From contig NZ_VFNX01000001.1 of assembly GCF_006715785.1 (NCBI RefSeq), positions 248,001 through 312,000 of the forward strand: a stretch of 64,000 nucleotides of DNA, given 5' to 3'. Position numbers and translations under genes: made by a program. Every line of letters starts with the position of its first letter. The first letter of the stretch is position 1. This DNA is from Streptomyces puniciscabiei. Its GTDB lineage: Bacteria > Actinomycetota > Actinomycetes > Streptomycetales > Streptomycetaceae. Under the pieces are notes generated by a model, which saw only the letters and a program-made list of their open reading frames with translations, had not been told where the DNA came from and searched no databases. Below, one piece after another: positions 1,377 to 22,729 of the stretch.

Positions 1377-3203
1377 TTGCGCGAGTTCACCAACCCGCCG
1401 CTCACATCGGCACCGCCGGTGGGCGGTCTGGCCGACGCGGTCTTCGAGCATGCCCGGACGGACCCCACGCACGTCGCCCTCGGCCGCAAGGACGCCTCCG
1501 GGCAGTGGCGCGAGGTGACCTCCGCCGAGTTCCGCGACGAGGTCCTGGCCCTCGCCAAGGGCCTGCTCGCGCGCGGCATCCGCTTCGGCGACCGCGTCGC
1601 CATCATGTCCCGCACCCGCTACGAGTGGACCCTGTTCGACTTCGCGCTGTGGTCGATCGGCGCCCAGGTGGTGCCGGTCTACCCGACGTCCTCGGCCGAG
1701 CAGTGCTTCTGGATGCTGTACGACGCCGAGGTGTCCGCGGCGATCGTGGAGCACGAGGACCACGCGATGACCATCGCCACCGTCATCGACCGCCTCCCGC
1801 AGCTGCGGCAGCTGTGGCAGCTGGACTCCGGCTGTGTTCAGGAGCTGTACGACGCCGGGGCGCACCTGGACGACGAGCTGGTGCACCGGCACCGTCAGGC
1901 GGTCACCCCGGATTCGGTCGCCACGATCATCTACACCTCGGGCACCACCGGCCGCCCCAAGGGCTGTGTCCTCTCGCACGCCAACTTCATGTACGAGGCG
2001 GACACGATGATCGAGCGCTGGCAGCCGGTGTTCCACACCAAGAAGGACGACGAGGCCTCCACCCTGCTGTTCCTGCCGCTCGCGCATGTCTTCGGGCGGA
2101 TGGTGGAGGTGGCCGCGATCCGCGGGCGGGTCCGCTTCGGGCACCAGCCGCAGCTGAACGCCGCCGCCCTGCTGCCCGACCTGCAGGCGTTCAAGCCCAC
2201 CTTCATCCTCGCGGTGCCGTACATCTTCGAGAAGGTGTTCAACGCGGCCCGCCGGAAGGCGGAGAAGGAAGGCAGATCCGGGCCGTTCGAGAAGGCCGTC
2301 GACATCGCGGTGAAGTACGCGGAGGCCGTGGAGGCCAAGGCGTGGGGCACCGGGCCCGGCCCGTCGGCGGGATTGCGCATGCAGCACCAGTTCTTCGACA
2401 AGGTCGTGTACTCCAAGGTCCGCGCGGCGATGGGCGGCCGGATCCGCAACGCGATGTCCGGCGGCTCGGCGATGGACCGCCGGCTGGGCCTGTTCTTCGC
2501 GGGCGCGGGCGTGCAGATCTACGAGGGCTACGGCCTGACCGAGTCGACGGCCGCGGCGACCGCCAACCCGCCCGAGCGGACCCGGTACGGCACCGTCGGG
2601 CAGGCCATCCCGGGCGTGACCGTGCACATCGCCGACGACGGGGAGATCTGGCTGTACGGCGGAAACGTTTTCCAGGGCTATCTGAACAACCCGAAGGCCA
2701 CCGACGAGACGCTGCACGACGGCTGGCTGGCCACCGGCGACCTCGGTGCGCTCGACGAGGACGGCTATCTGACCATCACCGGCCGCAAGAAGGAGATCCT
2801 GGTGACCTCCGGCGGCAAGAGCGTGTCCCCCGGGGTGCTGGAGGAGCGGGTCCGTGAGCATCCGCTGGTCAACCAGTGCATCGTCGTCGGCAACGACCGG
2901 CCCTACATCGCCGCCCTGGTCACCCTCGACCAGGAGGCCGTCGAGCACTGGCTGCAGATGCGCGGGAAGCCGCGGATGACCCCGGCCGAGCTGGTGCGCG
3001 ACCCGGACCTGGAGACGGAGGTGCGGCGGGCGGTGGTCGCCGCCAACACCCTCGTCTCCCAGGCCGAGTCCATCCGTACCTTCCGCATCCTTGCGCAGCC
3101 GTTCACCGAGGAACACGGCCTGCTCACGCCGTCGTTGAAGCTGAAGCGGAAGGCGATCGAGAAGGCGTACGGCAACGAGGTCGAGGCCCTCTACCGAACC
3201 TGA
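1377..3203 (+). CDS. Long-chain fatty-acid--CoA ligase (AMP-binding family)
   Basis: It activates fatty acids to acyl-CoA through an acyl-adenylate and feeds beta-oxidation or lipid synthesis. The product is 608 residues, normal for actinobacterial FadD15-like ligases. The P-loop motif YTSGTTGRPKG is near residue 185, the YGLTES motif near 384 and the ATGDLG motif near 450. I chose the TTG start at 1377 because GGGGAG lies six bases upstream and the product then begins MREFTNPP, as in relatives. An in-frame GTG at 1356 would add seven residues. A TetR-like palindrome lies upstream. It converges on the sugar dehydrogenase gene with only 18 bases between the two stops. Confidence 0.9.
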   Translation: MREFTNPPLTSAPPVGGLADAVFEHARTDPTHVALGRKDASGQWREVTSAEFRDEVLALAKGLLARGIRFGDRVAIMSRTRYEWTLFDFALWSIGAQVVPVYPTSSAEQCFWMLYDAEVSAAIVEHEDHAMTIATVIDRLPQLRQLWQLDSGCVQELYDAGAHLDDELVHRHRQAVTPDSVATIIYTSGTTGRPKGCVLSHANFMYEADTMIERWQPVFHTKKDDEASTLLFLPLAHVFGRMVEVAAIRGRVRFGHQPQLNAAALLPDLQAFKPTFILAVPYIFEKVFNAARRKAEKEGRSGPFEKAVDIAVKYAEAVEAKAWGTGPGPSAGLRMQHQFFDKVVYSKVRAAMGGRIRNAMSGGSAMDRRLGLFFAGAGVQIYEGYGLTESTAAATANPPERTRYGTVGQAIPGVTVHIADDGEIWLYGGNVFQGYLNNPKATDETLHDGWLATGDLGALDEDGYLTITGRKKEILVTSGGKSVSPGVLEERVREHPLVNQCIVVGNDRPYIAALVTLDQEAVEHWLQMRGKPRMTPAELVRDPDLETEVRRAVVAANTLVSQAESIRTFRILAQPFTEEHGLLTPSLKLKRKAIEKAYGNEVEALYRT

Positions 3204-3221
3204 GCCTTGGTTGACGGGAGG

Positions 3222-5249
3222 TCAGCTGATCGTCACCTTGAAGATCTTGTCCGATCCGTCGGCGGCGCCTCCGTTGTTGTCGCAGTTGGTGGTGGACAGC
3301 CACAGCTGGTCGGCGCCCGGCACCTTGGTCACGGTCCGCAGCCGGCCGTAGGTGCCCACGTAGTACGCACTCGGTGTGCCGACGCTCTCCGTGTCACCGT
3401 TGATGGGGATGCGCCACAGGCGTTCGCCGCGCAGGGACGCCATGTAGATCACGTTGCGGACGACGGCGATGCCGCTCGGCGAGGCCTCGGAGACGTTCCA
3501 GGTGGCTTTGGGGTTGGTCATGCCGGCGACGTTGCAGTTGCCCTCGCAGGTGGGCCAGCCGTAGTTCGCACCGGGCTTGATGAGGTTGAGCTCGTCCTTG
3601 GAGCTGTTGCCGAACTCCGCCTCCCAGAGTCGGCCGTTGCGGTCGAAGGCGAGGCCCTGCGGGTTGCGGTGGCCCAAGGAGTAGACGTAGTTGCCGAAGG
3701 GGTTGCCGGGGGCCGGTCTGCCGTCGGTGGTCATGCGCAGGATCTTGCCGTTGAGGGAGTTCTTGTCCTGCGCGAGGTCGGGCTGCTGGGCCTCGCCGGT
3801 GGAGACGTACAGGTAGCCGTCGGGGCCGAAGGCCAGGCGGCCGCCGTTGTGGTAGCGGTTCTTCTTGATGCCCTGCAGCAGGACCTTGTAGTCGCCGAGT
3901 GTCGTGCCGTCGTAGGTCATGCGGACGACCCGGTTGCCCTCGGCGGCGGTGTGCATGAAGTACACGTAGTGGTTGGTCTCCCACTTGGGGTCGACGGCGA
4001 CGCCGAGCAGGCCGCCCTCGCCGTTGGTGGTGACGGCGTTGGGCACCGTGCCCACCTGCGTCCTCGTGCCGCTCCTGGTCAGCTTCCACACCCGGAAGTC
4101 GTCCCGCTCGGTGACCAGGGCGGACTGGCCGTCGGGCAGCCAGTAGGTGCCCCAGGGGATGGTCCAGCCCGTGGAGAGCGTGGCGATGGAGGACGGGACA
4201 CCGCCGTCGGTGGCGCAGGCCTTGGTGGTGAAGGAGACCGTGTTGCTCGGCGCTGAGACGTTGCCGGCGGCGTCACGGGCCACCACGTTCAGGCTGTACG
4301 GGCTGTCGCAGGCGAGCCCGGTGAGCGTGGTGGAGGTGCCGGTGACGGTCTTGTAGACGGTGGTGTCGCTGCGCACGTCGTAGGCGGTGACCGCGCGGTC
4401 GTCGCTCGAGGCGCCCCAGGTGAGGTCGACCGTGTTCGACGTGACGTTCGCCGTGTGCAGGGTGCCCGGCGCGGTCGGCGGTGTGGTGTCGGAGCTGGGC
4501 CTGGTGGTGCAGTCGACGACCAGGCTGGCGGGCGAGGTGTTGCCGGCCGCGTCACGGGCGACGACCGTGAGGTCGTAGGTGGTGTTCGGGGCGAGCCCGG
4601 TCAGCGTCTTCGTGGTCGCGCTGCCCGGTGCCTCGCCGAGCTTGTTGCCGTGTTCGTACAGGTCGTACGCCGCGACGCCCACGTCGTCCGTCGACGCGCC
4701 CCAGGACAGGGTCAGGCGGTCCTCGCCGATGTCCGGGCAGGAGGGCTGCCCGGGGCGGGTGGGGGCCTGGGTGTCGGTCGGCGTGCCGAGGCTCAGGCGG
4801 TCGAGGTTCGGGCCGCCGTTCGCCGTGGTGGCCGTCGCCCGGATCTTGTTGCTGCCGGCCTTGAGGGTGACGGTGACGCTCCTGGCCGCCCAGGTGTTCC
4901 AGTCGGGCGTGCCGGGGAAGGAGACGGCGGGCGCGACGACGGTGCCGTTGACGGAGAGGTCCATCGGCCGGTCGGCGGCGGTGCCGTTGGCGTACCGCAG
5001 GGTGACCGACGCGGGTCCGGCGGAGGCGGCGCCGACCGTGAACTCCACGTAGGAACCCCTGGTGTTGGTGTAGTCGACGAAGCCGGTGCCCGTGTAGCCG
5101 GTGTGGTTGGTGGCGACGGCGCCCTGGGAGATCAGGGCGTCCTCGGCCTGGTAGTCGGTGGCCGCGGCGGCGGTGCCCTGGCTCAGGCCGGCGAGCGGCA
5201 GTGCGAGGGCCGCGGCCAGGCCGTACGGCAGAACTCTTCTGAGACGCAT
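3222..5249 (-). CDS. Secreted PQQ-dependent sugar dehydrogenase with CBM35 and two FN3 domains
   Basis: A soluble quinoprotein dehydrogenase predicted to oxidise aldoses outside the cell. The 675-residue product has a signal peptide (1-30), a CBM35-like domain (about 30-155), two fibronectin type III domains (about 156-250 and 253-345) and a beta-propeller of the glucose/sorbosone dehydrogenase family (about 350-675). The motif YHNGGRLAFGPDGYLY carries the histidine that acts as catalytic base in soluble glucose dehydrogenase. LGHRNPQGLAF and GANYGWP match its PQQ/substrate region. The ATG at 5249 follows GAGGAG. It is the last gene of the pqq operon, 22 bases after the triple hydrolase. Family and PQQ dependence are well supported; the actual sugar is unknown, and fungal AA12 relatives accept L-fucose among other pyranoses. 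Confidence 0.88.
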   Translation of the reverse strand: MRLRRVLPYGLAAALALPLAGLSQGTAAAATDYQAEDALISQGAVATNHTGYTGTGFVDYTNTRGSYVEFTVGAASAGPASVTLRYANGTAADRPMDLSVNGTVVAPAVSFPGTPDWNTWAARSVTVTLKAGSNKIRATATTANGGPNLDRLSLGTPTDTQAPTRPGQPSCPDIGEDRLTLSWGASTDDVGVAAYDLYEHGNKLGEAPGSATTKTLTGLAPNTTYDLTVVARDAAGNTSPASLVVDCTTRPSSDTTPPTAPGTLHTANVTSNTVDLTWGASSDDRAVTAYDVRSDTTVYKTVTGTSTTLTGLACDSPYSLNVVARDAAGNVSAPSNTVSFTTKACATDGGVPSSIATLSTGWTIPWGTYWLPDGQSALVTERDDFRVWKLTRSGTRTQVGTVPNAVTTNGEGGLLGVAVDPKWETNHYVYFMHTAAEGNRVVRMTYDGTTLGDYKVLLQGIKKNRYHNGGRLAFGPDGYLYVSTGEAQQPDLAQDKNSLNGKILRMTTDGRPAPGNPFGNYVYSLGHRNPQGLAFDRNGRLWEAEFGNSSKDELNLIKPGANYGWPTCEGNCNVAGMTNPKATWNVSEASPSGIAVVRNVIYMASLRGERLWRIPINGDTESVGTPSAYYVGTYGRLRTVTKVPGADQLWLSTTNCDNNGGAADGSDKIFKVTIS

Positions 5250-5271
5250 GGGTGTTTCTCCTCGTTCCCGC

Positions 5272-8200
5272 TCACCCCGTGGAGGGGGCTTCGCCGTTGG
5301 ATGCACTGGGCCTCACCCGGATGAGCCGGGTCTCGCCCGGGCGGAGGGTCGCGCTGTAGGAGCCGTTGATCGTGCCCTTGTGGGTGCCGGACCACAGGTC
5401 GGTGACGTCGCCGGAGCCGGTGAAGCCGACCTGGGACCAGCTCACGGTGACCGTGGCGCTGCCGGAGGTTCCGGTGTTGAACAGGGCCACCACGTGGTCG
5501 CCGTTGCTCTCCCGCTTGCTCCACACCTGCTTGACACCGCTGTTCACGAGGCGTTTGGCCGCGACCCCGTCCTGGTCGACCCCGATCAGCCGGTCGTTGG
5601 TGAGCATCGCCCTGTCGACGGAGTCCAGGTGGGTGAGGTCGGTGCCGAGCAGGAGGGGGGCCGCCGCCATCGCCCACAGCGTGAGGTGCGAGCGGCGCTG
5701 GTCGGCCGTGAGGGCCGCCTGGTCGCCGTTGCCGATCTCCAGCGAGTCCAGGTCGTTCCAGCCGCCCGGGCCGGCGTACGGCTGCCAGGACGCGGCCGAG
5801 TCGAAGCGCCTGGAGACGTGGGACCAGTCGGTGAGCGGATAGCCGCTGCCGTGGGGGCCGGGGCCGCAGTAGCACTCCACGTCGCCCTGGGTGCGCCAGC
5901 TGTTCGCGAGCCTGCGCCAGGTGGTGGCGTGGTCGATGGGGAGGTTGTTGGACAGGGCGAAGGTGATGGGCCGGCCGGTGGCACGCAGGGCCCTGTCCCA
6001 GGCCTGGACGTCGGGGATGTCCTGGCTGCCCACACCGTCGATCTTCAGGTAGTCGACTCCCCAGGAGGCGAACTGCCTGGCCCAGGAGTCCACGAACTCC
6101 TGTGCGCCGGGCTTGGAGTAGTCGATGGCGTACATGTTCCCGCAGTTGTAGTTCTTCTCGGTCCTCGTGGTGTCCGCGATGTCCTTCGCGTGGTACGGCG
6201 TCCCTTCGATCGGCGTGTTCCTCAGGACGGCGTTCCGGGCGATGCCGGGGGTGACGTAGAAGCCGAATCCCAGACCCCTGGAGTGGACGTGGTCGGCGAG
6301 GGCCTGGATGCCGTCGGGGAACTTGGCGGGGTCCACGGCCCAGCGGCCGTGGGAGTCGACGGTGAACCCGTTCGCGTCGCACTTCTGCCAGAAGTCGTCG
6401 AGGTTGACCTGGGTGAAACCGTGGTCCTTCAGCCCGCTGGAGGCCAGCGCGTCGGCCTGGGCCTCGATCTTCGCCTCGGTCGGCTGCCGGCGTACGAAGC
6501 TCCAGCTGCTCCAGCCCATGGCGGGGCGCAGGGACCGTCCGTTGTCGGAGGACGGGGTGAGTGTGGCCGCGGGTGTGGCGTACGACGTGCCGATCCAGGC
6601 CTCGTCGATCCGCAGCCGCCGGTAGCGGCTGGTGTCGGTGGCGGCGGCCCAGGTGGTGTCGACCTCGAGGCGGACGTAGCGGGCCGTGGTGCCGGGCAGG
6701 TCTATGCCCTGGATGCCGCGGGCGCTGGGGAGTTGGCCGGACGTGACCGCCGGGCCCCAGTTCGTGCCGTCGTCGCTGAGGTAGACCTTGTAGGCCTTGA
6801 TCCTCGCGGACTGTTCGGTGGCGGAGCGGGCGTAGGCGACGGAGTCCTCGCGCTGGTTGAGCCCCACGTACCGCACCTTCTTCGCGGAGCCGAGGTCGAA
6901 GGTGAGCGTCACCGGGAGCGTCCCGCCGTTGTCCCAGTAGGTCAGGTAGTCGCCGTCGCCTGCGGCGGACCCTGGGCGGCCACTCACCGAGGTGCTCGCG
7001 GTGACCTTGACGCCGGTCGCGATGCCCTGGCGGCCCGCGGTGATCACCTTGAAGACGGTGTCGTACGGGTCCCAGCCGCCGAGACCGGTGAGGGTGAGCA
7101 CTCCGCCGGACTGCGACCAGGCAACCGGCGCTCCGGTGCGGAGGTCGGTGACCGAGGCGATGCGGTAACCGTTGTCGCGGATGCGCAGGGTGCCGGTGTT
7201 CGGCGGGGTCAGGACGTGGATGTACTGCCGGTTGGGGTCGTCCTTGGCGACGGTGGTGACGCCGTGGGCGCCGTCGTTCCAGAAGCCGGGTTTGAGGCCG
7301 CCGTACATGTAGCCGCCGCCCTCGGTGCCGTGCAGGGACTCCCAGATCTTGTCGAGGTAGGAGTTGGCGAAGTTGTCGAAGTCGGCCTGGTTCGACGGGA
7401 ACTTCCCGTTGACCTGGGCGGTCTCCGCCATGAGCGCCTTCACCGAGGAGCCGGCGTTGGTGATCAGCCGGCCGAGGGTGAGCATCTTGTCGACGGTCGG
7501 GTTCGAGCCGTCGTACCACCAGGCGCCGGTCGACGGCAGCTTGAAGTCGGCCTCCGTGAGCCGGGGTTGGGCGGTGTAGAGCGCCTGCGGGTAGTCGTAG
7601 GCGGGTGTCATCCCGGTCTTCTGCTCATTGCTGATCATGTCCATGATCGGCGTGTCCTCGTTGTTGTTGCTGAGGGTGTAGTTCGGGCGCTTCCGATAGA
7701 TCTGCGCGTAGAGGTTGTGGCTCTCCCAGTACGCGTTGTCGTTGTCGATCCAGAAGCCGCCGAGGTCGGGGTAACGGTCCATGACCTCGAAGAAGTTGTC
7801 GTAGGAGAACTGCCCGAAGCCGTCGCGGGTGGTCAGGTCGACATGTCGGCCCTTGTAGGCGGAGTAGGCGGCCGAGTCGAGCCATTCGTGACCGCCCTCG
7901 TCGTGCCACTGGGGGTCGTCGGTCATGTAGAGGATGACCTTCATGCCCTTGGCCTTGGCGGCGTTGATCAGCTCACCGAGGAAGTCCCGCTTGGTGGAAC
8001 AGGAACCGGGGATCTTCGACGGCCACGGGCGGGCGTAGCCGAGCCTGCTGTGGAAGGTCGCCAGCACGAGGTACTGCGTGTGCAGTTTCCGCGCCTCGTT
8101 CACCCAGTACTCCGGCGTCCAGCCGCCGCTGGTGACGTCCTTCTCCCAGGCGGTGCAGTCGGTGTGGGCGGGGACGGTGCGCAGGCCCCAGTGCAGGAAG

Positions 8201-9795
8201 AGGCCGCCGACGGAGGCGCGGAGGAAGGCCTGGCGGGGGTTCTCGACGTCACGGGGGCGCACCTGTGTCGCGCAGTTCCGGCTGGATCCGCTCGCCGAGA
8301 CGCGCAGGGCGCCGCCGGTGGTGGTGTGGCTGTCGCCGACGCAGTAGCCGGTGACGGACTGGAAGCCGAGGTCGTGAGGTGAGGTGCTGCCCTTCTGCGC
8401 CGTGAACCGGGTCAGCCGGATGCCGCTCGCCGCGTTGGCGATGAGGGCGGGCCGGCCGTCGTCGGCGGCATATCGCACACTGCTGTCGGTGAACTGTATG
8501 CCGTCGGCATTGTGCAGGTACCAGCCGTACGCCGGCCGGGTCCCGATGCTCTTGGGGTTGTAGTCCTTCGGGTCGTTGCCCGGCACACCGGTGGACATCG
8601 TGCCGTTGCCGCCCGGGACCGTGATGTCGACGTGGTCGAAGGTGACGTCGCTGATGCGGTGGCCGTCCTCGCCCCACAGGGTCGGGCTGAAGGACGGGCT
8701 GTTGCCGGTGGCCGTGATGTCGTCGTAGGTGATGTCGCTGATCGATCCGACACCGGGGCTGTTTCCGCACCGTCGACGCGTGCCGATCTTCTCCATGATC
8801 GGCGAGTGCACGTCGGTCATGGTGATGTCGCGGTAGTGGACGTCGGAGATCTTCGCGCCGTCCATCGAGACCATTCCGAGGCCGGACTTGTCGGCACCCT
8901 CGATGCGGATCTTCTCGAACTGGTAGTCGGAGAAGTCGCCGCAGGTCTCGGAGCCGAACATCAGGGCGTTGCAGCAGCGCGCCGACAGCACCGAACCGCT
9001 CACCCGTACATGGCCGTTGGGGAGTTTGGCGCCGAGGGCGTAGTCGCTCTTGAAGACCAGGGCGTCGTCGTTGGCCGCGATGTGCGCGTTGGTGATGGTC
9101 ACGTCGGTGGTGGAGATGACGTTCCAGCCGTCGCGGTCGCTCGCGGTGTCGATGGTCAGGTGGTCGGAGACGACGTTCGTGCAGCCGTTGATCAGGGCGG
9201 CGAAGTGGCCGCCGCGGCGCAGGGTGAGGCCGTCGCCGAGCCGGAGTCCGTCGCAGCGGGTCAGCGAGAGGATCTTGTCGGCCTGGCCGGACTTCGGGTT
9301 GCCCGTGATCAGGTTGCCGGCGCCGTCGATGACCCCGCCGCCGGTGAAGCCGATGTCGGTCAGCCGGTCGCCGTAGATCATCGCGTCGTGGAAGTGGCTG
9401 TGCCCGTAGTCCTGGTACTTGTCGTTCGGGTTGGACTCGGGCGGGTCGTAGGCGCCGGCGGAGGAGCCCTGGAGGGTGGCGCCCTTGTCGATCTGGAGCG
9501 TCACATGGCTCTTCATGTGGATGGTGTTCCTGGACCTGTAGGTGCCGGCCGGGAGGCGGACGGTGCCGCCGCCCGCCGCGGCCGCCGCGGTGATGGCCTT
9601 GTCGATGGCCGGGGTGTCGTTGGCGGACCCGTCGCCCTTGGCGCCGTAGTCGCGCACGTCGTACACGGTTGCGGGGCGGGGCGTGGTGGGGTGCGGGGCC
9701 GCGACGGCGGCGGGGTGGGTGAGGCCGAGGACGACGGCGAGGACGCCCAGGACGATCGTCGCCGCCCGTCTCGGGCCCCTTCTAATCATGTTCAT
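5272..9795 (-). CDS. Secreted three-catalytic-module glycoside hydrolase (GH28-like, GH29-like, F5/8C domain, GH27)
   Basis: A 1507-residue secreted protein. After a signal peptide (about 1-33), residues 45-510 form a parallel beta-helix of the polygalacturonase/pectate-lyase-3 type, opening with DVRDYGAKGDG and carrying NDDALVFKS near 241. The usual GH28 HG and RIK motifs are not evident. Residues about 515-910 resemble alpha-L-fucosidase (GH29), with a candidate nucleophile in GGFWIDND near 678. Residues about 920-1045 form a discoidin-like binding domain. Residues 1085-1507 are a GH27 alpha-galactosidase with YLKID (nucleophile Asp, near 1252) and WRTQGD (acid/base Asp, near 1303). The ATG overlaps the stop of the GH105 gene by four bases, so translation is probably coupled. 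The frame is continuous and the modules are clear; the substrate is inferred to be a plant pectic or gum-type side chain. Confidence 0.85.
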   Translation of the reverse strand: MNMIRRGPRRAATIVLGVLAVVLGLTHPAAVAAPHPTTPRPATVYDVRDYGAKGDGSANDTPAIDKAITAAAAAGGGTVRLPAGTYRSRNTIHMKSHVTLQIDKGATLQGSSAGAYDPPESNPNDKYQDYGHSHFHDAMIYGDRLTDIGFTGGGVIDGAGNLITGNPKSGQADKILSLTRCDGLRLGDGLTLRRGGHFAALINGCTNVVSDHLTIDTASDRDGWNVISTTDVTITNAHIAANDDALVFKSDYALGAKLPNGHVRVSGSVLSARCCNALMFGSETCGDFSDYQFEKIRIEGADKSGLGMVSMDGAKISDVHYRDITMTDVHSPIMEKIGTRRRCGNSPGVGSISDITYDDITATGNSPSFSPTLWGEDGHRISDVTFDHVDITVPGGNGTMSTGVPGNDPKDYNPKSIGTRPAYGWYLHNADGIQFTDSSVRYAADDGRPALIANAASGIRLTRFTAQKGSTSPHDLGFQSVTGYCVGDSHTTTGGALRVSASGSSRNCATQVRPRDVENPRQAFLRASVGGLFLHWGLRTVPAHTDCTAWEKDVTSGGWTPEYWVNEARKLHTQYLVLATFHSRLGYARPWPSKIPGSCSTKRDFLGELINAAKAKGMKVILYMTDDPQWHDEGGHEWLDSAAYSAYKGRHVDLTTRDGFGQFSYDNFFEVMDRYPDLGGFWIDNDNAYWESHNLYAQIYRKRPNYTLSNNNEDTPIMDMISNEQKTGMTPAYDYPQALYTAQPRLTEADFKLPSTGAWWYDGSNPTVDKMLTLGRLITNAGSSVKALMAETAQVNGKFPSNQADFDNFANSYLDKIWESLHGTEGGGYMYGGLKPGFWNDGAHGVTTVAKDDPNRQYIHVLTPPNTGTLRIRDNGYRIASVTDLRTGAPVAWSQSGGVLTLTGLGGWDPYDTVFKVITAGRQGIATGVKVTASTSVSGRPGSAAGDGDYLTYWDNGGTLPVTLTFDLGSAKKVRYVGLNQREDSVAYARSATEQSARIKAYKVYLSDDGTNWGPAVTSGQLPSARGIQGIDLPGTTARYVRLEVDTTWAAATDTSRYRRLRIDEAWIGTSYATPAATLTPSSDNGRSLRPAMGWSSWSFVRRQPTEAKIEAQADALASSGLKDHGFTQVNLDDFWQKCDANGFTVDSHGRWAVDPAKFPDGIQALADHVHSRGLGFGFYVTPGIARNAVLRNTPIEGTPYHAKDIADTTRTEKNYNCGNMYAIDYSKPGAQEFVDSWARQFASWGVDYLKIDGVGSQDIPDVQAWDRALRATGRPITFALSNNLPIDHATTWRRLANSWRTQGDVECYCGPGPHGSGYPLTDWSHVSRRFDSAASWQPYAGPGGWNDLDSLEIGNGDQAALTADQRRSHLTLWAMAAAPLLLGTDLTHLDSVDRAMLTNDRLIGVDQDGVAAKRLVNSGVKQVWSKRESNGDHVVALFNTGTSGSATVTVSWSQVGFTGSGDVTDLWSGTHKGTINGSYSATLRPGETRLIRVRPSASNGEAPSTG

Positions 9796-11003
9796 GACAC
9801 CTCATCACCTCGCAGTTGCTCGTTCATGATCAGGAAGGCCCCGAGCCCGTGGAAGTCGTTGGTGGCCCGGGTGCGACCGACGTAGTAGACGTAGTCGCCG
9901 ACGTTGGTGCCGACGGATATGCCGGCCAGGTTCGTACGGCCGTCCGCGCCGACCGAGAGCCGGGCCAGCACTCCCCGGTAACCGCGCCGGGCGACCGCCT
10001 CGAAGCGCGGGTCCAGGTAGCCCTGCCGGGCGCCGCGGGAGAGGGCGTAGGCGAACATGCTGGAGCAGGAGGTCTCGGTCCAGTCGTCCGGCCGGGAGCC
10101 CTTGTCGATCACCTGGAACCAGCGCCCGGACGCCGGGTCCTGGTACTTCTCCAGCGCCGAGGCCAACGAGTGGAGGATGCCGAGCAGTTGGGGGCGCCCG
10201 GGCTGGTCGGCGGGGATCGCGTCGAGGACGTTCACCAGCGCCATGGCGTACCAGCCGACGGCACGGCACCAGTGCTCCGGAGCGAGTCCGGTGGCCGGGT
10301 CGGCCCAACCCGCCGACCTCGACTCGTCGTAGGCGTGCCGCAGCAGGCCGTTCGCCACCTGGAGGTGACCGCCGTAGACGGACAGCTGCCGGGCGGCCTC
10401 CTCGTTCGTGTACGCGCTGTCGCCGAATTCCCTGCCGTACTCGACCAGGAAGGGGTTGACCATGTAGGCGCCGTCCGCCCACAGCTGGTGGGCCCGGCCG
10501 CTGGTGTCGGCGTGCCAGAAACCGCCGTCGGAGGTGCGCGGGTAGCTGTTCAGGCGGCCGCGGATCCTCCGCGCGGCCCTGCGGTAGCGGTCCTGACCGG
10601 TCTCGTGGTGCAGGATCACCAGCAGCCGGCCCGCCTGCATGCTGTCGAGGCTGTCGAAGGACTGGTCGATCGTGCCGTCACTGTGCACGAACCGGTCGAC
10701 GTAGGCCTTGATGTAGGTGAGCAGACGGGGATCGTGGGTGCGCCGGTACACGAGGTACTGGCCGTACAGGTACAGGCCCACGGGGTACGACCAGCCGCCG
10801 ATGGTCGCCGGTGTGTAGCGGGCCATGGTGGAGTCCACGACGGCCGTGGACCAGTCGCGGGCGGCGGCGGGGCGGGGCGCCAGGGCCGCGGCGGAGGGTA
10901 CGGGCGCGGCGCTCGCCGAGGGTACGGCGGCGGGCAGCGCGGCCAGGGTGGCGGTGGCGAGCGTGACCGCGGTCAGCGCGGCTCGCAGGCGTCGGCGTCT
11001 CAT
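9792..11003 (-). CDS. Secreted GH105/GH88-type unsaturated glycuronyl hydrolase
   Basis: Predicted to remove the unsaturated uronic acid left at the non-reducing end of oligosaccharides by polysaccharide lyases. The 403-residue product has a signal peptide (1-32) and an (alpha/alpha)6 barrel. LWADGAYM near residue 176 carries the Asp expected to hydrate the double bond, and LDSMQAGRLL and HWCRAVGWYAMAL are typical of the family. The ATG at 11003 has AGGAGG in front and overlaps the pqqE stop by four bases; its own stop overlaps the next start by four bases. The gene therefore sits as a coupled link between PQQ synthesis and the triple hydrolase. A signal peptide is notable, since many GH105 enzymes are cytoplasmic. 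Confidence 0.85.
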   Translation of the reverse strand: MRRRRLRAALTAVTLATATLAALPAAVPSASAAPVPSAAALAPRPAAARDWSTAVVDSTMARYTPATIGGWSYPVGLYLYGQYLVYRRTHDPRLLTYIKAYVDRFVHSDGTIDQSFDSLDSMQAGRLLVILHHETGQDRYRRAARRIRGRLNSYPRTSDGGFWHADTSGRAHQLWADGAYMVNPFLVEYGREFGDSAYTNEEAARQLSVYGGHLQVANGLLRHAYDESRSAGWADPATGLAPEHWCRAVGWYAMALVNVLDAIPADQPGRPQLLGILHSLASALEKYQDPASGRWFQVIDKGSRPDDWTETSCSSMFAYALSRGARQGYLDPRFEAVARRGYRGVLARLSVGADGRTNLAGISVGTNVGDYVYYVGRTRATNDFHGLGAFLIMNEQLRGDEVS

Positions 11004-12082
11004 GGTCCTCCTTCTCGGTAGGCGTACGCGGGCGGATGAGCGCAGTCGGCGGCGCCGCGCACCGCCGCGGCCACGACGGGGTGGTCCGGGGCGTGCCGGC
11101 AGGCGGGGTCGGTGCGGGTGGCATCGCCGGTCCGGGCGTACGCCTGGCAGCGGCAACCGCCGTGGTCGACCGTGCGCAGGGCACAGCCGCGGCACGGTTC
11201 GGGCATCCAGGACTCGCCCCGGAAGGCGTTGAAGGCCCGCGACTCCCGCCAGATCCAGCCGAGTTCGCGGTGTGTCACGTTCGGCGGGTCCAGGCCGGGC
11301 AGGGTGCCGGCCGCGGGGCACGGCAGCACCGTGCCGTCCGGGGCGACGGTGAGCGAGACCGCGCCCCAGCCGCCCATGCAGGGTTTCGCGGTGGCGTCGA
11401 CCAGGTCGGGGGCCACCCACACCAACTCCGGTGTCCTACCGAGGCGTTCACGCCAGCTTGTCACTCGGGCCCGGGCGCGTTCGACCTGGGCGGGTGTGGG
11501 CAGCAGCGCCGCGCGGTTGCGGGCCGCCCACCCGTGGTACTGGGTGTTCGCCAGCTCGATCCGGTCGGCGCCCCAGTCGAGCGCGAGCCTGATGAGACCG
11601 TCGAGGTCGTCCAGGTTGCCGCGGTGCAGCACGGCGTTCAGCCCCAGCGGCAGTCCGGACTCGCGGATCAGCCGGGCTGCACGCTCCTTCGCGGTGAAAG
11701 ACCGTGCGCCCGCGATGTGTTCGGCGGCGGTGCGGTCCGCGTGCTGCACCGACAGCTGCACACTGCGCAGCCCGGCCCCGGTCAGTTCGGCCAGCCGGCG
11801 CTCGCCGAGGCCCACCCCGCTGGTGACGAGCTGCGTGTACAGGCCGGCCCCGTCGGCGGCGGCCACCAGGTCGGGCAGGTCGCGCCGCAGCAGCGGCTCG
11901 CCACCGGACAGATGGGTGTGCACGACACCGAGGGCACCGGCCTGCCGGAAGACCTCCGACCACTCCTGCGTGGACAACTCCGCCGAACGGCGGACGAGTT
12001 CGACGGGGTTGGAGCAGTAGCCGCAGCGCAGGGGGCAGGCGTGGGTGAGCTCGGCGAGCAGGGCCCAGGGCGGGTCGGTCAT
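11000..12082 (-). CDS. pqqE: PqqE, radical SAM PqqA glutamate-tyrosine cross-linking enzyme
   Basis: It forms the carbon-carbon bond between Glu and Tyr of the PqqA peptide, the first step of PQQ synthesis, with PqqD as peptide chaperone. The 360-residue product has the radical SAM motif CPLRCGYC (Cys16, Cys20, Cys23), the SAM-binding GGEP, and a C-terminal SPASM region with cysteines in CMGGWG, PCPAAG and PCRGCAL. The ATG at 12082 overlaps the pqqD stop by four bases. A longer open frame runs upstream to 12514 but lacks homology. The family is unmistakable. Confidence 0.95.
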   Translation of the reverse strand: MTDPPWALLAELTHACPLRCGYCSNPVELVRRSAELSTQEWSEVFRQAGALGVVHTHLSGGEPLLRRDLPDLVAAADGAGLYTQLVTSGVGLGERRLAELTGAGLRSVQLSVQHADRTAAEHIAGARSFTAKERAARLIRESGLPLGLNAVLHRGNLDDLDGLIRLALDWGADRIELANTQYHGWAARNRAALLPTPAQVERARARVTSWRERLGRTPELVWVAPDLVDATAKPCMGGWGAVSLTVAPDGTVLPCPAAGTLPGLDPPNVTHRELGWIWRESRAFNAFRGESWMPEPCRGCALRTVDHGGCRCQAYARTGDATRTDPACRHAPDHPVVAAAVRGAADCAHPPAYAYREGGP

Positions 12083-12360
12083 CTCAGAAAGCCCTCCTTC
12101 CGCAACCGGTGGAGAAACGCCGGGACTTCTGCGGCGACGGGCGCGGCGGGATGGCGTACGGCCAGGACGGCGACGACGGCTGCCACGTCCCGGACGCCGT
12201 CGCACAACCTCAGGACCGCGCCCGCACTGCCGTCGAGGACCACCACCCGCTCCGGCAGCAGCAACAGGTCGGCGTCCCGGACCGGGTCGTGCCGCAGCAC
12301 CACACCTCGGGCGAGCGCCGGACGCCATGACGGGGCAAGCGGTGCCGGCGGCGCCGTCAT
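12079..12360 (-). CDS. pqqD: PqqD, PqqA-binding peptide chaperone
   Basis: A 93-residue RRE-fold protein that binds PqqA and presents it to PqqE. Visible family features are the central LLLLPERVVVLDGSAGAVL segment and a C-terminal helix ending FLHRLRKEGFLR, typical of PqqD. The start overlaps the pqqC stop by four bases and the end overlaps the pqqE start by four bases. The order C-D-E is the common bacterial one. Some bacteria carry PqqC and PqqD as one fused protein; here they are separate but coupled. Confidence 0.93.
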   Translation of the reverse strand: MTAPPAPLAPSWRPALARGVVLRHDPVRDADLLLLPERVVVLDGSAGAVLRLCDGVRDVAAVVAVLAVRHPAAPVAAEVPAFLHRLRKEGFLR

Positions 12361-13082
12361 GTCCCGCTCCGGTCCACCGCGTCCAGCAGGGCCCACAGCA
12401 CCTCGCACTTGAACTCCAGTGCGCCCAGGGCGCGTTGCTGCTCCGCGCGGGTGCGGGCCCGGGCGAGGACCAGGGCGAGGGCCTGCTCGGCGTCCCGGGC
12501 CCCTTGGGTGACACGGGTGCGGAAGTAGGCGAGGCCCGCGGGGTCGATCCACGGATAGTGGCGTTCGAAGGCGGCGATGCGGGTGCGCATCAGGTCCGGG
12601 GCGGACAGCTCGGTCAGGGAGGCCGCGACGGCGTCCAGCACCGGGCGCCGCCGGCAGAAGGTGACGTATCCCTCCACCGCGAACCGCACCCCGGGCGGGA
12701 CCCGGGAGGTGTCCCACAGCTCCTCGCGGGCGAGCCCGGCCGCCTCGCCGAGCCGCAGCCAGCGCTCGATGCCGCCGCCCTCCGGGGAGTCGGCGTCGGT
12801 ACCGTCCTGGTCGTGGATGCGGCGCAGCCAGGCCCGGCGGTCCTCGGGCCGGTCGAACTTGGCGAGGATCAGCGCGTCCTTGACGGGGATGTGCCGCTGG
12901 TAGTGGAAGCGGGCGGCGATCCAGCGGCGCAGTTCGGCCGGGGTCAGTTCGCCGCGGTGCATCCGCTGGTTGAAGGGGTGCCGGTCGTGGTAGCGCGTCG
13001 CGGTGACTGCGCGCAGCCGCTCGGTGAACCGGGCGGCCGGCCAGGCGGCACAGCCGTCGGGTTCCGGTGGTGCCGCGGTCAT
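12357..13082 (-). CDS. pqqC: PqqC, pyrroloquinoline-quinone synthase
   Basis: A cofactor-less oxidase that carries out the final ring closure and eight-electron oxidation giving PQQ. The 241-residue product is of normal length. Diagnostic stretches are YHDRHPFNQRMHRGEL near the N terminus, WIAARFHYQRHIPVKDALI, and EGYVTFCRRRP. The ATG at 13082 overlaps the pqqA stop by four bases. No pqqB lies between pqqA and pqqC, which is where it usually sits in proteobacterial operons. Confidence 0.95.
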   Translation of the reverse strand: MTAAPPEPDGCAAWPAARFTERLRAVTATRYHDRHPFNQRMHRGELTPAELRRWIAARFHYQRHIPVKDALILAKFDRPEDRRAWLRRIHDQDGTDADSPEGGGIERWLRLGEAAGLAREELWDTSRVPPGVRFAVEGYVTFCRRRPVLDAVAASLTELSAPDLMRTRIAAFERHYPWIDPAGLAYFRTRVTQGARDAEQALALVLARARTRAEQQRALGALEFKCEVLWALLDAVDRSGT

Positions 13083-13246
13083 GCGGCCGGGGGCGGCTCG
13101 GGCGGCCGGCGGTCGGCGAGCGCGTAGGCGGTCACCTCCAGCGCCGTCTCCACGACGTGGTAACCAGGGTTTCTCCAGACCTTTTCATCCGATGTCTCGG
13201 GGCCGGAGCGGTGCGTCAAGACAGGCAGGGAAGGGTTCTCGGTCAT
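13079..13246 (-). CDS. pqqA: PqqA, PQQ precursor peptide (55 residues)
   Basis: The ribosomal precursor whose Glu and Tyr side chains become PQQ. The frame encodes 55 residues. The conserved E-V-T-x-Y core is present as EVTAY (Glu37, Tyr41), preceded by WRNPGYHVVETAL, which lines up with the W-x-K-P-x-Y region of classical PqqA. The N-terminal leader is longer than the 23-30 residues of most PqqA peptides. The stop overlaps the pqqC ATG by four bases. The ribosome site is weak (AGGAAAGCGAG). It is easy to miss because the gene is under 200 bases, but position and core motif make the call strong. Confidence 0.9.
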   Translation of the reverse strand: MTENPSLPVLTHRSGPETSDEKVWRNPGYHVVETALEVTAYALADRRPPEPPPAA

Positions 13247-13561
13247 GGGTGCGTACTCGCTTTCCTGAGGGTGGGGAGTCTCAGAAGGGAGCCGGAGGGG
13301 GAACGCGGCCTGGTCAGGACCCGTTCACATGTATGCACCGGGTTCAGTGACGCGTCCGGTGGCGCGATACAGAGTTGCGGGACGACGGGCTCCGGTCAAT
13401 GGTCCGGACCGAAAACGTCGGATGCGTTTCCGGCCAATCTCCACTCCTGGGGCTGACTGACCGGTCAGTTCGAGGCGGATCACGCCGTCAGGAATGCGGC
13501 GCGGCGCTTGATCGTTGACGATGGGAGTACCACCTGTCGACAACGAAGGATCAAGAGGCTC
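13247..13561. promoter_or_regulatory. Divergent control region between pqqA operon and aldo/keto reductase
   Basis: This 315-base region must hold the promoter of the 10-kb pqq/hydrolase operon. I see a 10-base palindrome GGTCCGGACC (13401-13410), a LacI-like degenerate dyad CGGATGCGTTTCCG with a central CG (13419-13432), and a perfect 14-base palindrome at 13456-13469. No CebR or CsnR box is present. No -10/-35 pair can be assigned with confidence. Confidence 0.5.
13456..13469. promoter_or_regulatory. Perfect 14-base palindrome ACTGACCGGTCAGT, TetR-like operator candidate
   Basis: It lies 93 bases before the aldo/keto reductase start and 210 bases before pqqA. Its arms ACTGAC/GTCAGT are identical to those of the palindrome at 1191-1204 in front of the acyl-CoA ligase, so one regulator may act on both. 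No TetR gene is present in the window. Confidence 0.5.
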
Positions 13562-14398
13562 GTGAGCAGCAAGGTCCCCCCGATCATCCTGAACAACGGC
13601 GTCGAGATGCCCCAGCTGGGCTTCGGCGTGTGGCAGGTGCCGGACGACGAGGCCGAGCGGGCCGTCGCCACGGCGCTGGAGGCCGGGTACCGCAGCATCG
13701 ACACCGCGGCGATCTACGGCAACGAAGAGGGCACCGGCAAGGCGATCGCCGCCTCCGGCCTGCCCCGCGAGGACATCTTCGTCACCACCAAGCTCTGGAA
13801 CAGCGACCAGGGGTACGACGCCACGCTGCGCGCCTTCGACGCGTCGCTGCGGAAGCTGGGCCTCGACCACCTCGACCTGTACCTGATCCACTGGCCGCTG
13901 CCGGCCCGCGGCACGTACACCGACACCTACAAGGCGTTCGAGAAGCTGCTGGCCGACGGCCGGGTCCGCGCCATCGGCGTGTCCAACTTCCTTCCGGAGC
14001 ACCTCGAGCGGCTTCTCTCCGAGACCTCGGTCATCCCCGCGGTCAACCAGATCGAGCTGCACCCGCATCTGCAGCAGCACGCCGCCCGGGAGTTCCACGC
14101 CGAGCAGGGCATCGCGACCGAGGCCTGGTCGCCGCTCGGCCAGGGCAAGGGCCTGCTGGAGGTGCCGGCGATCGTCGCCATCGCACAGAAGCACGGCCGC
14201 ACCCCGGCCCAGGTCGTGCTGCGCTGGCACGTCCAGCTCGGCAACGTGGTGATCCCGAAGTCTGTGACGCCGTCCCGAATCAGGGAGAACATCGAGGTCT
14301 TCGACTTCAGCCTGGACGACGAGGATCTCGCGGCGATCAGCGCGCTCAACGAGGACCGGCGCCTGGGTCCCGACCCGGCCACCTTCGACATGGGCTGA
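13562..14398 (+). CDS. Aldo/keto reductase
   Basis: A cytoplasmic NADPH-dependent carbonyl reductase of the AKR5-like bacterial group. The 278-residue product has the catalytic set Asp and Tyr in DTAAIYGNE, Lys in TTKLWN and His in LIHWPL, and the cofactor region IPKSVTPSRIRENIEVFDF. The GTG at 13562 follows an AAGGATCAAGAGG ribosome site; an upstream in-frame TTG at 13508 would add 18 unlikely residues. It is divergent from the pqq operon and could share control with it. A strong terminator follows. The physiological substrate is not visible from sequence. Confidence 0.9.
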   Translation: MSSKVPPIILNNGVEMPQLGFGVWQVPDDEAERAVATALEAGYRSIDTAAIYGNEEGTGKAIAASGLPREDIFVTTKLWNSDQGYDATLRAFDASLRKLGLDHLDLYLIHWPLPARGTYTDTYKAFEKLLADGRVRAIGVSNFLPEHLERLLSETSVIPAVNQIELHPHLQQHAAREFHAEQGIATEAWSPLGQGKGLLEVPAIVAIAQKHGRTPAQVVLRWHVQLGNVVIPKSVTPSRIRENIEVFDFSLDDEDLAAISALNEDRRLGPDPATFDMG

Positions 14399-15380: not shown

Positions 15381-16088
15381 GTGCGCCTTCGAACCCTGAC
15401 CCTTGCCGCGGCCTCCGGGGCCGCCCTGCTCGCCGCCGGAGTGCTGCCCGCCCACGCGTCCGCCGGCCCGGCCGCGCGGACCGCTCCCGCCTCCGCCCAG
15501 GAGGGCTCGGTCAGCGCGGCCGATCTGCTCGCCAAGGTGAAGTCCTGTTCGCAGATATCCAACGGCAAGTACAAGACCGACGACGAGACGTCGGCCACGG
15601 TCCCCGTGTGCGGCAAGAACGGCGCGGTCTTCTGGAAGGCCGACATGGACATCGACTGCGACGGCCAGCGCACCACCAACTGCAACGAGAACCGCGACCC
15701 CTGGTACCAGGACGACACCGCCTTCCACCAGTCCGACGGCAAGCCGCTGAAGGCGGAATCGCTCCCGTACATCGTCGTCCCCAGCTCCAGCAGCATCTGG
15801 AACTACGCCGGCGCCGGCATCAAGGGCGGCGGCGTGGTCGCGGTCATCTACAACAACAAGGTGGAGTACGCCGTCGTCGGCGACACCGGCCCCACGAAGA
15901 TCATCGGCGAGGCGTCGTACGCCACCGCCAAGGCGCTCGGCATCGACCCGGACCCGAAGTCCGGCGGCGCCGACTCGGGCGTGACCTACATCCTGTTCAA
16001 GAACTCCCGGGTCTCCCCCATCGAGAGTCACAGCGCCGCGGTCTCCCTCGGGGACCAGCTGGCCAAGCAGTTCCTCGCCAACAACTGA
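15381..16088 (+). CDS. Secreted GH75 chitosanase
   Basis: An endo-chitosanase that cleaves beta-1,4-glucosamine chains outside the cell. The 235-residue product has a signal peptide (about 1-35). The GH75 catalytic domain contains VPVCGKNGAVFWKADMDIDCDG, with the conserved Asp cluster, and VVGDTGPTKIIGEAS with a conserved Glu. The GTG at 15381 has GAAGG about ten bases upstream. The CsnR-type dyad directly in front supports chitosan-dependent control. Size and motifs are normal for the family. Confidence 0.9.
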   Translation: MRLRTLTLAAASGAALLAAGVLPAHASAGPAARTAPASAQEGSVSAADLLAKVKSCSQISNGKYKTDDETSATVPVCGKNGAVFWKADMDIDCDGQRTTNCNENRDPWYQDDTAFHQSDGKPLKAESLPYIVVPSSSSIWNYAGAGIKGGGVVAVIYNNKVEYAVVGDTGPTKIIGEASYATAKALGIDPDPKSGGADSGVTYILFKNSRVSPIESHSAAVSLGDQLAKQFLANN

Positions 16089-19220: not shown

Positions 19221-20969
19221 TCAGGGCAGCGGCGGATACGCGTTCTGCATCAGCTGCTGGAACTGGGCGGAGAACCAGTGCCCGGCCAGCGGCGCGTTCG
19301 GCAGCGCACCCGTGGGGTTGTTGCCGTTGCGGGCGTTGCCGCCGTAGGTGGGGTCACACATCCGGTCGAAGCCCTTGCCCTCGTCATTGGCGATGGCGGT
19401 GCTGGAGCCGTCGGACTCCCCCGGCGCCTTGGCCCACACATAGGCGTCGATACCGGCGGCCGGCGCCGCGGTCGGCCGTTCGCCGAGGCCCGCGCCGCTC
19501 TGGTTGCACCAGTTGCCGACGTGGATGCGCCGGTCGGTGCGGCCGCCGTTGACATAGTCGTCCACGGAGGTCAGCGGGCCGGGACCGGTGGGCCGTGCGG
19601 TGCCGCCCCAGCCGTTGCGGGAGGTGTCGATCAGCATGCCGAGGCCGGAGCCGAACCCGGCGGCGATCAGCTTGTCCCGCAGGGCGAGGGCGTACGACTG
19701 CTCGTCCACGTACTGGTTCCAGTCCACCCACTTCGACTGGCGCACGGTCGTGCCGTTCACCGTGTCGGTGACCTTGACGTACGGCTCCTTGGTGGCGCTG
19801 TAGTTGGCGGTGTTGACGATGAAGCCGGCCACGTCGTTCACGCTCGCGCCGTTCGTCGTCGCGACCTTGTGGAACTCCTGCACCGCCGGGCCGAGGTTGG
19901 TGTCCCAGCCGAGCCAGCCGTGGTGACCGGCGTCCACGTAGTTGTACACGTTGGGGATGGCCCCGAGCTTGTCCAGGGCGTAGGAGACGCCCTTCTCGTA
20001 GTTGCCGTTGTTCTTCATGGTCACGCAGGCGTCCGTGGTGGAGTTGGTGCCGCCGGCGTTGGTGACCAGGTTGGGCAGGGAGTCGGGCTCGATGACGGTC
20101 ACGATCCTCAGGGAGGCGTACGCCGGGTCGGAGAGGATCGAGGCGATCGGGTCGATGTACTGCGTCTTGTACCTGTCGATGTCGTCGGGGCCGAGTTCGC
20201 CGTTGGAGGCGAGGGCGGCGCAGTCGCGTCCGGGGAGGTCGTAGATGACCAGCTGGACGACCAGGTCGCCGGAGCCCTTCTGCTTCAGGGCCTCGTTCAG
20301 GTGGTCGCGCAGGCCCATGCCGCCGTTCACGCCGTTGATCGCGGCGATCCGGTCGAGCCACACGGCGGTGGGCTGGTCGGAGACGCGGCTGCCGCCCGGT
20401 TCGGCGGCGGCCTTCGCCGACCACTCGGGGTTCACATAGACCTTGGCCCCCGCGTAGGGGTTGTCGACCCGGCTGCCGGTACTGCCGCCGCCCGTGCCGC
20501 CACCGCCGGTACCTCCACCACCGGTACCTCCACCACCGGAGCCGCTGCCGTCGTCGACGTTGCAGGTGACGCCGTCGAGGGTGAAGGTGGCGGGCACGGC
20601 GTTGGTGCCGCTGTAGGAGGCGTTGAAGCCGAAGCGGACCGACCCGCCGGTCGCGAGAGTGCCGTTGTAGCCGGCGTTGGTGGCGGTGACATCGGCGCCG
20701 CTCTGGCCGACCTGCGCGTTCCAGGCGTCGGTGACCTTCTGGTTGCCCGCGTACGACCACTTCAGCGACCAACTCGACTTGGCAGCCCCGTTGTTGGTGA
20801 TGGTGACGGCGGCGGTGAAGCCGGTGTCCCACTGGTTCTGCACGGTGTAGGCGACGGTACAGGGGACGGTGGAGGTGGCGGCGCCGGCGGGTGCCGCGAG
20901 CAGCGCCGTCCCGGAGGTCCCGGCGACCAGCGCCAGGGCCGCGAGCAGCGAGGTTCTGGTACGACTCAT
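19221..20969 (-). CDS. Secreted GH6 cellulase (cellobiohydrolase/endoglucanase) with CBM2
   Basis: Cleaves cellulose with inversion from the non-reducing end. The 582-residue product has a signal peptide (1-31), a CBM2 (about 32-135), a Gly/Thr/Ser linker (about 140-165) and a GH6 domain (170-582). Catalytic-region motifs are VIYDLPGRDCAA and VIEPDSLPN, with NVYNYVDAGHHGWLGW. Its length and long loops favour the cellobiohydrolase branch. The ATG at 20969 has GAAGGA upstream. It is the second gene after GH5, 30 bases downstream, so probably one transcript under the CebR-type control region at 22476-22729. Confidence 0.92.
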   Translation of the reverse strand: MSRTRTSLLAALALVAGTSGTALLAAPAGAATSTVPCTVAYTVQNQWDTGFTAAVTITNNGAAKSSWSLKWSYAGNQKVTDAWNAQVGQSGADVTATNAGYNGTLATGGSVRFGFNASYSGTNAVPATFTLDGVTCNVDDGSGSGGGGTGGGGTGGGGTGGGSTGSRVDNPYAGAKVYVNPEWSAKAAAEPGGSRVSDQPTAVWLDRIAAINGVNGGMGLRDHLNEALKQKGSGDLVVQLVIYDLPGRDCAALASNGELGPDDIDRYKTQYIDPIASILSDPAYASLRIVTVIEPDSLPNLVTNAGGTNSTTDACVTMKNNGNYEKGVSYALDKLGAIPNVYNYVDAGHHGWLGWDTNLGPAVQEFHKVATTNGASVNDVAGFIVNTANYSATKEPYVKVTDTVNGTTVRQSKWVDWNQYVDEQSYALALRDKLIAAGFGSGLGMLIDTSRNGWGGTARPTGPGPLTSVDDYVNGGRTDRRIHVGNWCNQSGAGLGERPTAAPAAGIDAYVWAKAPGESDGSSTAIANDEGKGFDRMCDPTYGGNARNGNNPTGALPNAPLAGHWFSAQFQQLMQNAYPPLP

Positions 20970-20999
20970 GAGTGCGGGTTCCTTCTTCCGTCGTTGGGC

Positions 21000-22475: not shown

Positions 22476-22523
22476 GAGCGACTCCTTGCAGTTGGGCGCG
22501 CCGTGACGGACGCGTCGACTGAC

Positions 22524-22537
22524 CGGAACCGCTCCCA
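22524..22537 (-). promoter_or_regulatory. Degenerate CebR-like site upstream of GH5
   Basis: CGGAACCGCTCCCA matches 11 of 14 bases of TGGGAGCGCTCCCA, with the right half intact. It lies 49 bases upstream of the GH5 start. It may bind the repressor weakly or cooperatively with the perfect box at 22667. Confidence 0.5.
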
Positions 22538-22666
22538 CTGGTGCGAAGGAAGGTAGCGCCAAGTGCCCGGGATGCCCAGGGGAGTTGCTGACTTTTCCGC
22601 AACCGCCTCCGTCGAATCTTTTCGACTCTTCAAGCGCCTTGACGGCCCACAGGGACGTCATCACCA

Positions 22667-22680
22667 TGGGAGCGCTCCCA
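22667..22680 (+). promoter_or_regulatory. Perfect CebR box TGGGAGCGCTCCCA
   Basis: A perfect 14-base palindrome identical to the consensus bound by CebR, the LacI-family cellobiose/cellotriose-responsive repressor of streptomycete cellulase genes. It lies 50 bases before the GH48 start and 192 bases before the GH5 start. Confidence 0.9.
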
Positions 22681-22729
22681 CTGGTTCAAGCCTTGACTTC
22701 TCCCCCACGCCCCAAGGAGGAACCAGCAC

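Follow-up and report, generated by a model that had tools for sequence, protein, structure and literature searches.

A putative Streptomyces operon combining PQQ synthesis genes with predicted pectin hydrolases and a CBM35-bearing quinoprotein

We analyzed a stretch of 64,000 nucleotides from Streptomyces puniciscabiei (contig NZ_VFNX01000001.1, positions 248,001 to 312,000; hereafter the window), in which genes for the synthesis of the redox cofactor pyrroloquinoline quinone (PQQ) stand in one run with genes for predicted pectin hydrolases and a quinoprotein sugar dehydrogenase (GSDH). As described in the initial annotation, made from the sequence alone, the run comprises seven genes on the minus strand, from the start of pqqA at 13246 to the end of the GSDH gene at 3222. 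The pqqA gene (13079..13246) encodes a 55-aa precursor peptide with the core ETALEVTAY. It is followed by pqqC, the PQQ synthase gene (12357..13082; TIGR02111, 268 bits, cut-off 240), pqqD, encoding the peptide chaperone (12079..12360; TIGR03859, 72 bits, cut-off 46), and pqqE, encoding a radical SAM/SPASM enzyme with the motif HACPLRCGYC (11000..12082; TIGR02109, 475 bits, cut-off 381), these three cut-offs being those of NCBIfam equivalogs. Next come a GH105 gene (9792..11003), a gene for a multi-module hydrolase of 1507 aa (multi-GH, 5272..9795), and the GSDH gene (3222..5249). The family matches agree with the earlier claim that PQQ genes, hydrolases and a CBM35-bearing quinoprotein share one run. 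The order departs from the canonical pqqABCDE, as pqqA and pqqC overlap by 4 bases with no pqqB between them.

Five ATGA overlaps of 4 bases link the first six genes, from pqqA through the multi-GH gene. The GSDH gene lies 22 bases further on when its ATG at 5249 is taken as the start; an alternative in-frame GTG at 5306 would overlap the multi-GH gene. Of 304 same-strand neighbours counted in the remainder of the window, in its flank, and at the 20 pqqB loci, 80 (26%) overlap by 4 bases. Five in succession have a chance probability of about 0.001, yet they are ordinary in a true operon, and the overlaps alone are modest evidence. Conservation of the run in relatives, described below, appears to be the stronger argument for an operon. 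The presumed operon promoter is a conserved region upstream of pqqA (13320..13561, minus strand), which an alignment of 40 sequences and blastn searches with the gaps of pqq-less loci showed to be common to pqq-bearing (25) and pqq-less (15) loci. A single transcript may start there. An Rfam search gave 0 matches.

GH105 matches Pfam GH88/105 with 288 bits, and its closest solved relative is YteR (PDB 1nc5/2d8l, 263 bits); it is a predicted unsaturated rhamnogalacturonyl hydrolase. According to Pfam and NCBIfam matches, multi-GH begins with a GH28/rhamnogalacturonidase-like module (approximately 8605..9660; Pfam GH28, 74 bits), for which NF049898 gave 298 bits, below its cut-off of 500, and PDB matches were weak only. 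Then come a GH29-like module, distant kin of alpha-L-fucosidases (approximately 7051..8265; Pfam, 45 bits, cut-off 25.2; PDB 9eu4, E 1.5e-6), an F5/8-type (CBM32-like) module (6646..7005; Pfam, 59 bits), and a GH27 module resembling alpha-galactosidases and beta-L-arabinopyranosidases (approximately 5314..6429; Pfam Melibiase_2, 131 bits, and Melibiase_C, 62 bits; PDB matches 6f4c, 1uas, and 4nx0). Foldseek also returned GH29 matches for the GH29-like module, but from a low-confidence model (pLDDT 62). The FWIDND motif of this module, to be compared with the nucleophile motif of GH29 enzymes, is invariant across 26 aligned sequences. The hydrolase set points to rhamnogalacturonan I as the predicted substrate. 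Among 295 Streptomyces-group genomes, 39 encode the GH29-like/F5-8 pair. A sample drawn across the class (394 genomes, 137 genera) yielded it in 5 genomes, all Streptomyces. In a separate arrangement, seen in loci L193-L195, L063, L067, and L070, a GH29-like/F5-8 gene immediately precedes pqqABCDE, and several of these loci also have GH27 or GSDH close by; this is an apparent second association of this hydrolase with PQQ genes.

The last gene encodes a CBM35-FN3-FN3-GSDH protein (Pfam GSDH, 235 bits), with the CBM35 at 5159-4788 and the catalytic domain at 4211-3225. The N-terminal module matched both CBM6 (39 bits) and CBM35 (32 bits) above the Pfam cut-offs, and among solved chains it is closest to the CBM35-type 2vzp, whose group we take to be uronate-binding. 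The AlphaFold model of the catalytic domain has a pLDDT of 93.9, and its propeller superposes on the PQQ-bound aldose sugar dehydrogenase 3DAS of S. coelicolor with a TM score of 0.94 (49% identity). The fungal pyranose dehydrogenases of family AA12 are much further away (TM 0.70-0.71, 14-16% identity). The motifs HNGGR, GHRN, and RLR, presumably the PQQ-contact residues of sGDH-type enzymes, are all present, as judged from the alignment to 3DAS and from motif counts. These patterns are not universal: among 66 GSDHs encoded beside pqq without hydrolases, 39 have HNGGR and 58 have GHRNxQG. A fifth pattern, with a match in 1 of 120 sequences, was set aside as badly made. Like GH105 and multi-GH, GSDH has a signal-peptide-like N-terminus; judged by eye, these N-termini predict secretion of all three proteins.

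Relatives were collected in two ways. A PqqE scan of 421 relatives provided the best 80 named Streptomyces loci, and a genus sample of 295 genomes contained PqqC above the cut-off in 66 genomes, at 76 places including the window, the other 75 of which were fetched. The whole collection comprises 176 loci, namely the window, the 80 named loci, and 95 from the genome search. Genes in relatives were called by a home-made script, so that starts and some gaps are approximate (pqqD of the window was called from 12300, not from its ATG at 12360). Some operons are cut by the limits of the 20-kb stretches or 10-kb flanks, and a GSDH missing at the end of a stretch does not equal a loss. The operon was found to recur at one Streptomyces site, between a divergent DkgA-like aldo-keto reductase gene (AKR; 13562..14398, plus strand, left edge) and a convergent gene for an AMP-binding acyl-CoA ligase (ACSL; 1419..3203, plus strand, right edge). 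After removal of loci without the AKR beside the operon and of duplicates by AKR sequence, 62 of the 176 loci are distinct occupants of this site, 46 with pqq genes and 16 without. Their states include pqqBCDE with GSDH and no hydrolases; pqqBCDE with GH105, a lyase-like gene, and GSDH; the form seen in the window; hydrolases and GSDH without pqq; and decayed forms. The initial annotation had suggested searching actinobacterial genomes for pqq genes directly upstream of GH105. This arrangement is conserved in many Streptomyces; where pqqE and GH105 are adjacent, the stop of the former overlaps the start of the latter in 29 of 36 pairs.

Among the 54 site rows having hydrolase or lyase genes, 47 include the lyase-like gene. 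Two of its products were compared with PF14099, and scored 30.5 (just over the cut-off of 29.9) and 25.5 (under it); a PDB search with the lyase-like protein gave 0 matches. The gene is not in the window, and a near relative (L033) has just a 58-aa piece.

On the flanking-gene tree, the distribution of pqqCDE requires at least 8 changes. This is a quick AKR+ACSL tree, in which 21 of 59 inner branches have support below 80 and 25 of 62 rows have less than half of the columns filled. The window form belongs with a 40-row clade (support 97) made up of 25 pqq-bearing rows that lack pqqB and 15 pqq-less rows; outside this clade, all rows are pqq-bearing except L227. In 15 of the 16 pqq-less rows, the sequence upstream of pqqA is retained over some 200 bases or more, mostly at 72-80% identity, while L227 has short blocks only. 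Past this region, the pqq-less rows run into GH105 or the lyase-like gene. Clear remnants of pqqA were found in four loci (L210, L213, L214, and L215) and weak ones in L211 and L217; L214 also retains a 43-residue start of pqqE, and GH105 ends persist in L213 and L215. The direction at the four loci with clear remnants is therefore loss. No remnant was seen in the other 10 of the 16 pqq-less rows, where the direction rests on the tree. The reverse scenario, gain of pqq, is disfavoured on the same two grounds. A decay intermediate is provided by L230, where only residues 149-239 of pqqC remain; an intact pqqC and a PqqB are encoded elsewhere in that genome. In the loci with remnants, the presumed promoter would now read directly into the hydrolases.

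The initial annotation had called the unit self-contained. This did not hold, since pqqB is absent from the operon and the sole PqqB found in the genome is encoded on another contig (contig 5, C5:68457-69338; 348 bits, cut-off 245). All 20 genomes examined with a pqqB-less operon (19 relatives and that of the window) encode PqqB elsewhere, in some of them as part of a second full pqq operon. Over the 46 pqq-bearing site rows, the absence of pqqB is one change by parsimony. Twenty loci were fetched for their pqqB genes. Seventeen of them contributed an orphan to the PqqB tree, two (L126 and L128) are full operons, and one (L129) escaped the pattern used by the script. Sixteen orphans form one long-branch clade (support 100), far from the operon copies and nearest to L176, and the remaining one (L131) belongs to a different type. 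Relocation of the operon's own pqqB is disfavoured by the distance of the 16-member clade from the operon copies; the pattern looks more like replacement by a divergent PqqB. This divergent protein, encoded elsewhere, would complete the PQQ gene set. The nearest relative, from L176, belongs to a pqq operon ordered A-C-D-E-B. The orphan pqqB was also seen a few kb from a cluster with a LacI-like regulator, an ABC transporter, GH42, and GH53 (L115:9949-10845 and L115:11975-19901; contig 5 of the window's genome); in L115 the two hydrolases were recognized by Pfam and the regulator and transporter by eye. GH42/GH53-like genes occur near pqqB in 13 of 20 loci compared. Rhamnogalacturonan I carries galactan as a side chain.

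In our reading, the operon is an oxidative arm of pectin degradation, supplied with PQQ and targeted by a CBM, and its pqq-less relatives probably use environmental PQQ. We give this a probability of roughly two in three, a figure trimmed because remnants were seen at only some of the pqq-less loci. One transcript would make PqqA, PqqC, PqqD, and PqqE together with the overlapping, predicted-secreted hydrolases and the CBM35 quinoprotein, and the divergent PqqB would be supplied from elsewhere to complete PQQ synthesis. A lyase or hydrolase would cut rhamnogalacturonan I, from which GH105 and the multi-module protein would free sugars. PQQ would leave the cell by a presumed export step and load the dehydrogenase, which the CBM35 may hold on uronate-rich pectin, and the quinoprotein would oxidize the reducing-end C1 of a released aldose to the lactone, passing electrons to an acceptor. 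Where pqqACDE was lost, the dehydrogenase, kept under similar selection, would load PQQ made by others. According to PMC4332668, the fungal pyranose dehydrogenase CcPDH, when tested with deoxy- and L-sugars, prefers L-fucose and L-galactose and hardly takes L-rhamnose. Given the GH29-like module, L-fucose or L-galactose would be a fair first guess for the substrate of GSDH, by analogy with a distant enzyme.

Several observations weigh against this interpretation. A pattern scan of 3000-13700 found no sigma-70-type promoter anywhere, including upstream of pqqA; nor did it find a terminator-like site along the operon strand. No electron acceptor was recognized in the operon, and the suggestion that electrons go to lytic polysaccharide monooxygenases (LPMOs) is not supported: the genome's three AA10 genes are each over 0.49 Mb away from the window. 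Of the 76 Streptomyces pqqC loci sampled, only 17 include these hydrolases in the same same-strand run, and in 1 further locus they lie nearby. Fifteen fetched loci have the hydrolases and GSDH with no pqq in view (in one, L219, a contig end cuts upstream of GH105). Two of these genomes (G261 and G253) have another pqq operon, and the other 13 have no match to PqqC (E up to 0.001) or PqqE (E up to 1e-60) anywhere, one assembly (G276) being a 94% complete draft of about 1770 contigs. A strict need for co-synthesis is weakened, because these 13 genomes keep the hydrolase-dehydrogenase part without a PqqC or PqqE match. In L213, L215, and L225, the dehydrogenase is lost or a fragment while the hydrolases are kept, and PqqC is encoded elsewhere in the genome.

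The genes might also share the site by history and without a common function, PQQ serving other dehydrogenases such as a second GSDH, which the window's genome does encode (C1:1491754). The loss of PQQ genes where hydrolases stay would fit such a history. So would the 30 of 76 sampled pqqC loci with GSDH but none of these hydrolases and L136, which has a PQQ alcohol dehydrogenase beside pqq and is the sole one examined by Pfam among the 16 loci with neither hydrolases nor GSDH (L135-L150). We nevertheless consider mere neighbourhood unlikely: the pqqE-GH105 overlap is kept in most adjacent pairs; GSDH is in the run or nearby in 40 of the 76 loci, a lower bound as stretches end; and the CBM35 is present in 44 of the 54 site rows having hydrolase or lyase genes, as compared with 0 of 8 rows without them.

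A dehydrogenase that needs no PQQ in vivo, owing to an apo role or another cofactor, would make pqq loss neutral. GSDH homologs were detected in 16 of 16 genomes searched, the 13 without a PqqE or PqqC match included, and selection on the enzyme is alike with and without PQQ genes. Mean dN/dS of the catalytic domain was 0.145 for 6 pqq-less pairs, 0.145 for 8 pqq-bearing pairs, and 0.146 for 4 further pairs, and that of GH105 was 0.309, 0.257, and 0.313, respectively; these are pairwise Nei-Gojobori values for selected pairs, some of the same species, rather than a branch model, and one pair (L221-L226) includes G253, which has pqq elsewhere. Independence from PQQ seems slightly less probable still than a shared site by history, as the nearest solved structure, 3DAS, is PQQ-bound, and HNGGR, GHRN, and RLR are kept in 15 of 15 GSDHs from loci with no pqq in view. 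Furthermore, according to PMC6881789, bacteria that do not make PQQ themselves, E. coli among them, depend on PQQ from the environment. Since both the motifs and a similar purifying selection are kept without PQQ genes, the simplest reading is that the dehydrogenase of the pqq-less genomes probably still works and takes PQQ from outside.

That the pqq-like genes make a different modified peptide, as the PqqA score below the family cut-off (TIGR02107, 14.8 bits against 20) and the lack of pqqB in the operon might suggest, can be dismissed as most improbable, given that PqqC, PqqD, and PqqE pass their equivalog cut-offs, that PqqB does so elsewhere in the genome, and that the PqqA core W..P......TALEVTAY, near variants included, occurs in 46 of 46 pqq-bearing site loci with its Glu and Tyr kept in every one.

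Operons of the pqqABCDE type with a linked quinoprotein dehydrogenase are an already known kind, with the same pathway genes. Here, in contrast, pectin-type hydrolase genes overlap pqqE and separate it from the dehydrogenase gene, and pqqB lies elsewhere. The soluble aldose sugar dehydrogenases Asd/Adh (3DAS, 2G8S, and 3A9G) belong to the same six-bladed propeller group as GSDH, to which the protein described here adds an N-terminal CBM35 and two FN3 domains and a place in a hydrolase operon. The AA12 pyranose dehydrogenases (CcPDH and TrAA12), PQQ sugar dehydrogenases of plant-polymer degraders, are candidates for a like function, but GSDH is distant from them and has no cytochrome domain. 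The YteR-type degradation of rhamnogalacturonan I in B. subtilis resembles the system in its GH105, its rhamnogalacturonidase-like GH28, and, for most relatives, the lyase-like gene; unlike there, GH105 is predicted to be secreted, and an oxidative arm and cofactor synthesis share the operon. PQQ synthesis in an operon with polysaccharide hydrolases was not found described in a literature search of titles and abstract starts that covered few subscription papers. Within the literature searched, three features are new: the link to a predicted operon of pectin hydrolases, a PqqB supplied from elsewhere, and the repeated loss of pqq.

An operon that joins the genes for making a redox cofactor to those for predicted secreted pectin hydrolases and a substrate-targeted quinoprotein suggests that pectin breakdown in Streptomyces has an oxidative arm. 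The different occupants of a single site make two ideas testable, the use of a neighbour's PQQ by a non-maker and PQQ synthesis on a divergent PqqB encoded elsewhere. A bolder proposal, to which we give somewhat less than even odds, is that PQQ is a shared extracellular good: the quinoprotein would be loaded outside the cell, producers would leak PQQ onto pectin, and lineages would repeatedly lose the cofactor genes while selection keeps the enzyme. If this is true, the site is a natural experiment on cofactor freeloading in soil.

Other arrangements of pqq genes were also seen. In L136, a gene of the peroxidase family (PF00141; L136:13924-16164) lies in the same run as pqq, which is of the PQQ alcohol dehydrogenase type. 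In L181, genes for a branched-chain-type ABC transporter and a GSDH-like protein of 700 aa come after the pqq operon (Pfam, L181 only), a candidate transport-coupled PQQ system; L203 and L108 have similar gene lengths. Within the window, a GH75 chitosanase-like gene lies close to the site (15381-16088), and CBM2-bearing cellulase genes of GH6, GH5, and GH48 occupy 19221-25648, about 6 kb past pqqA.

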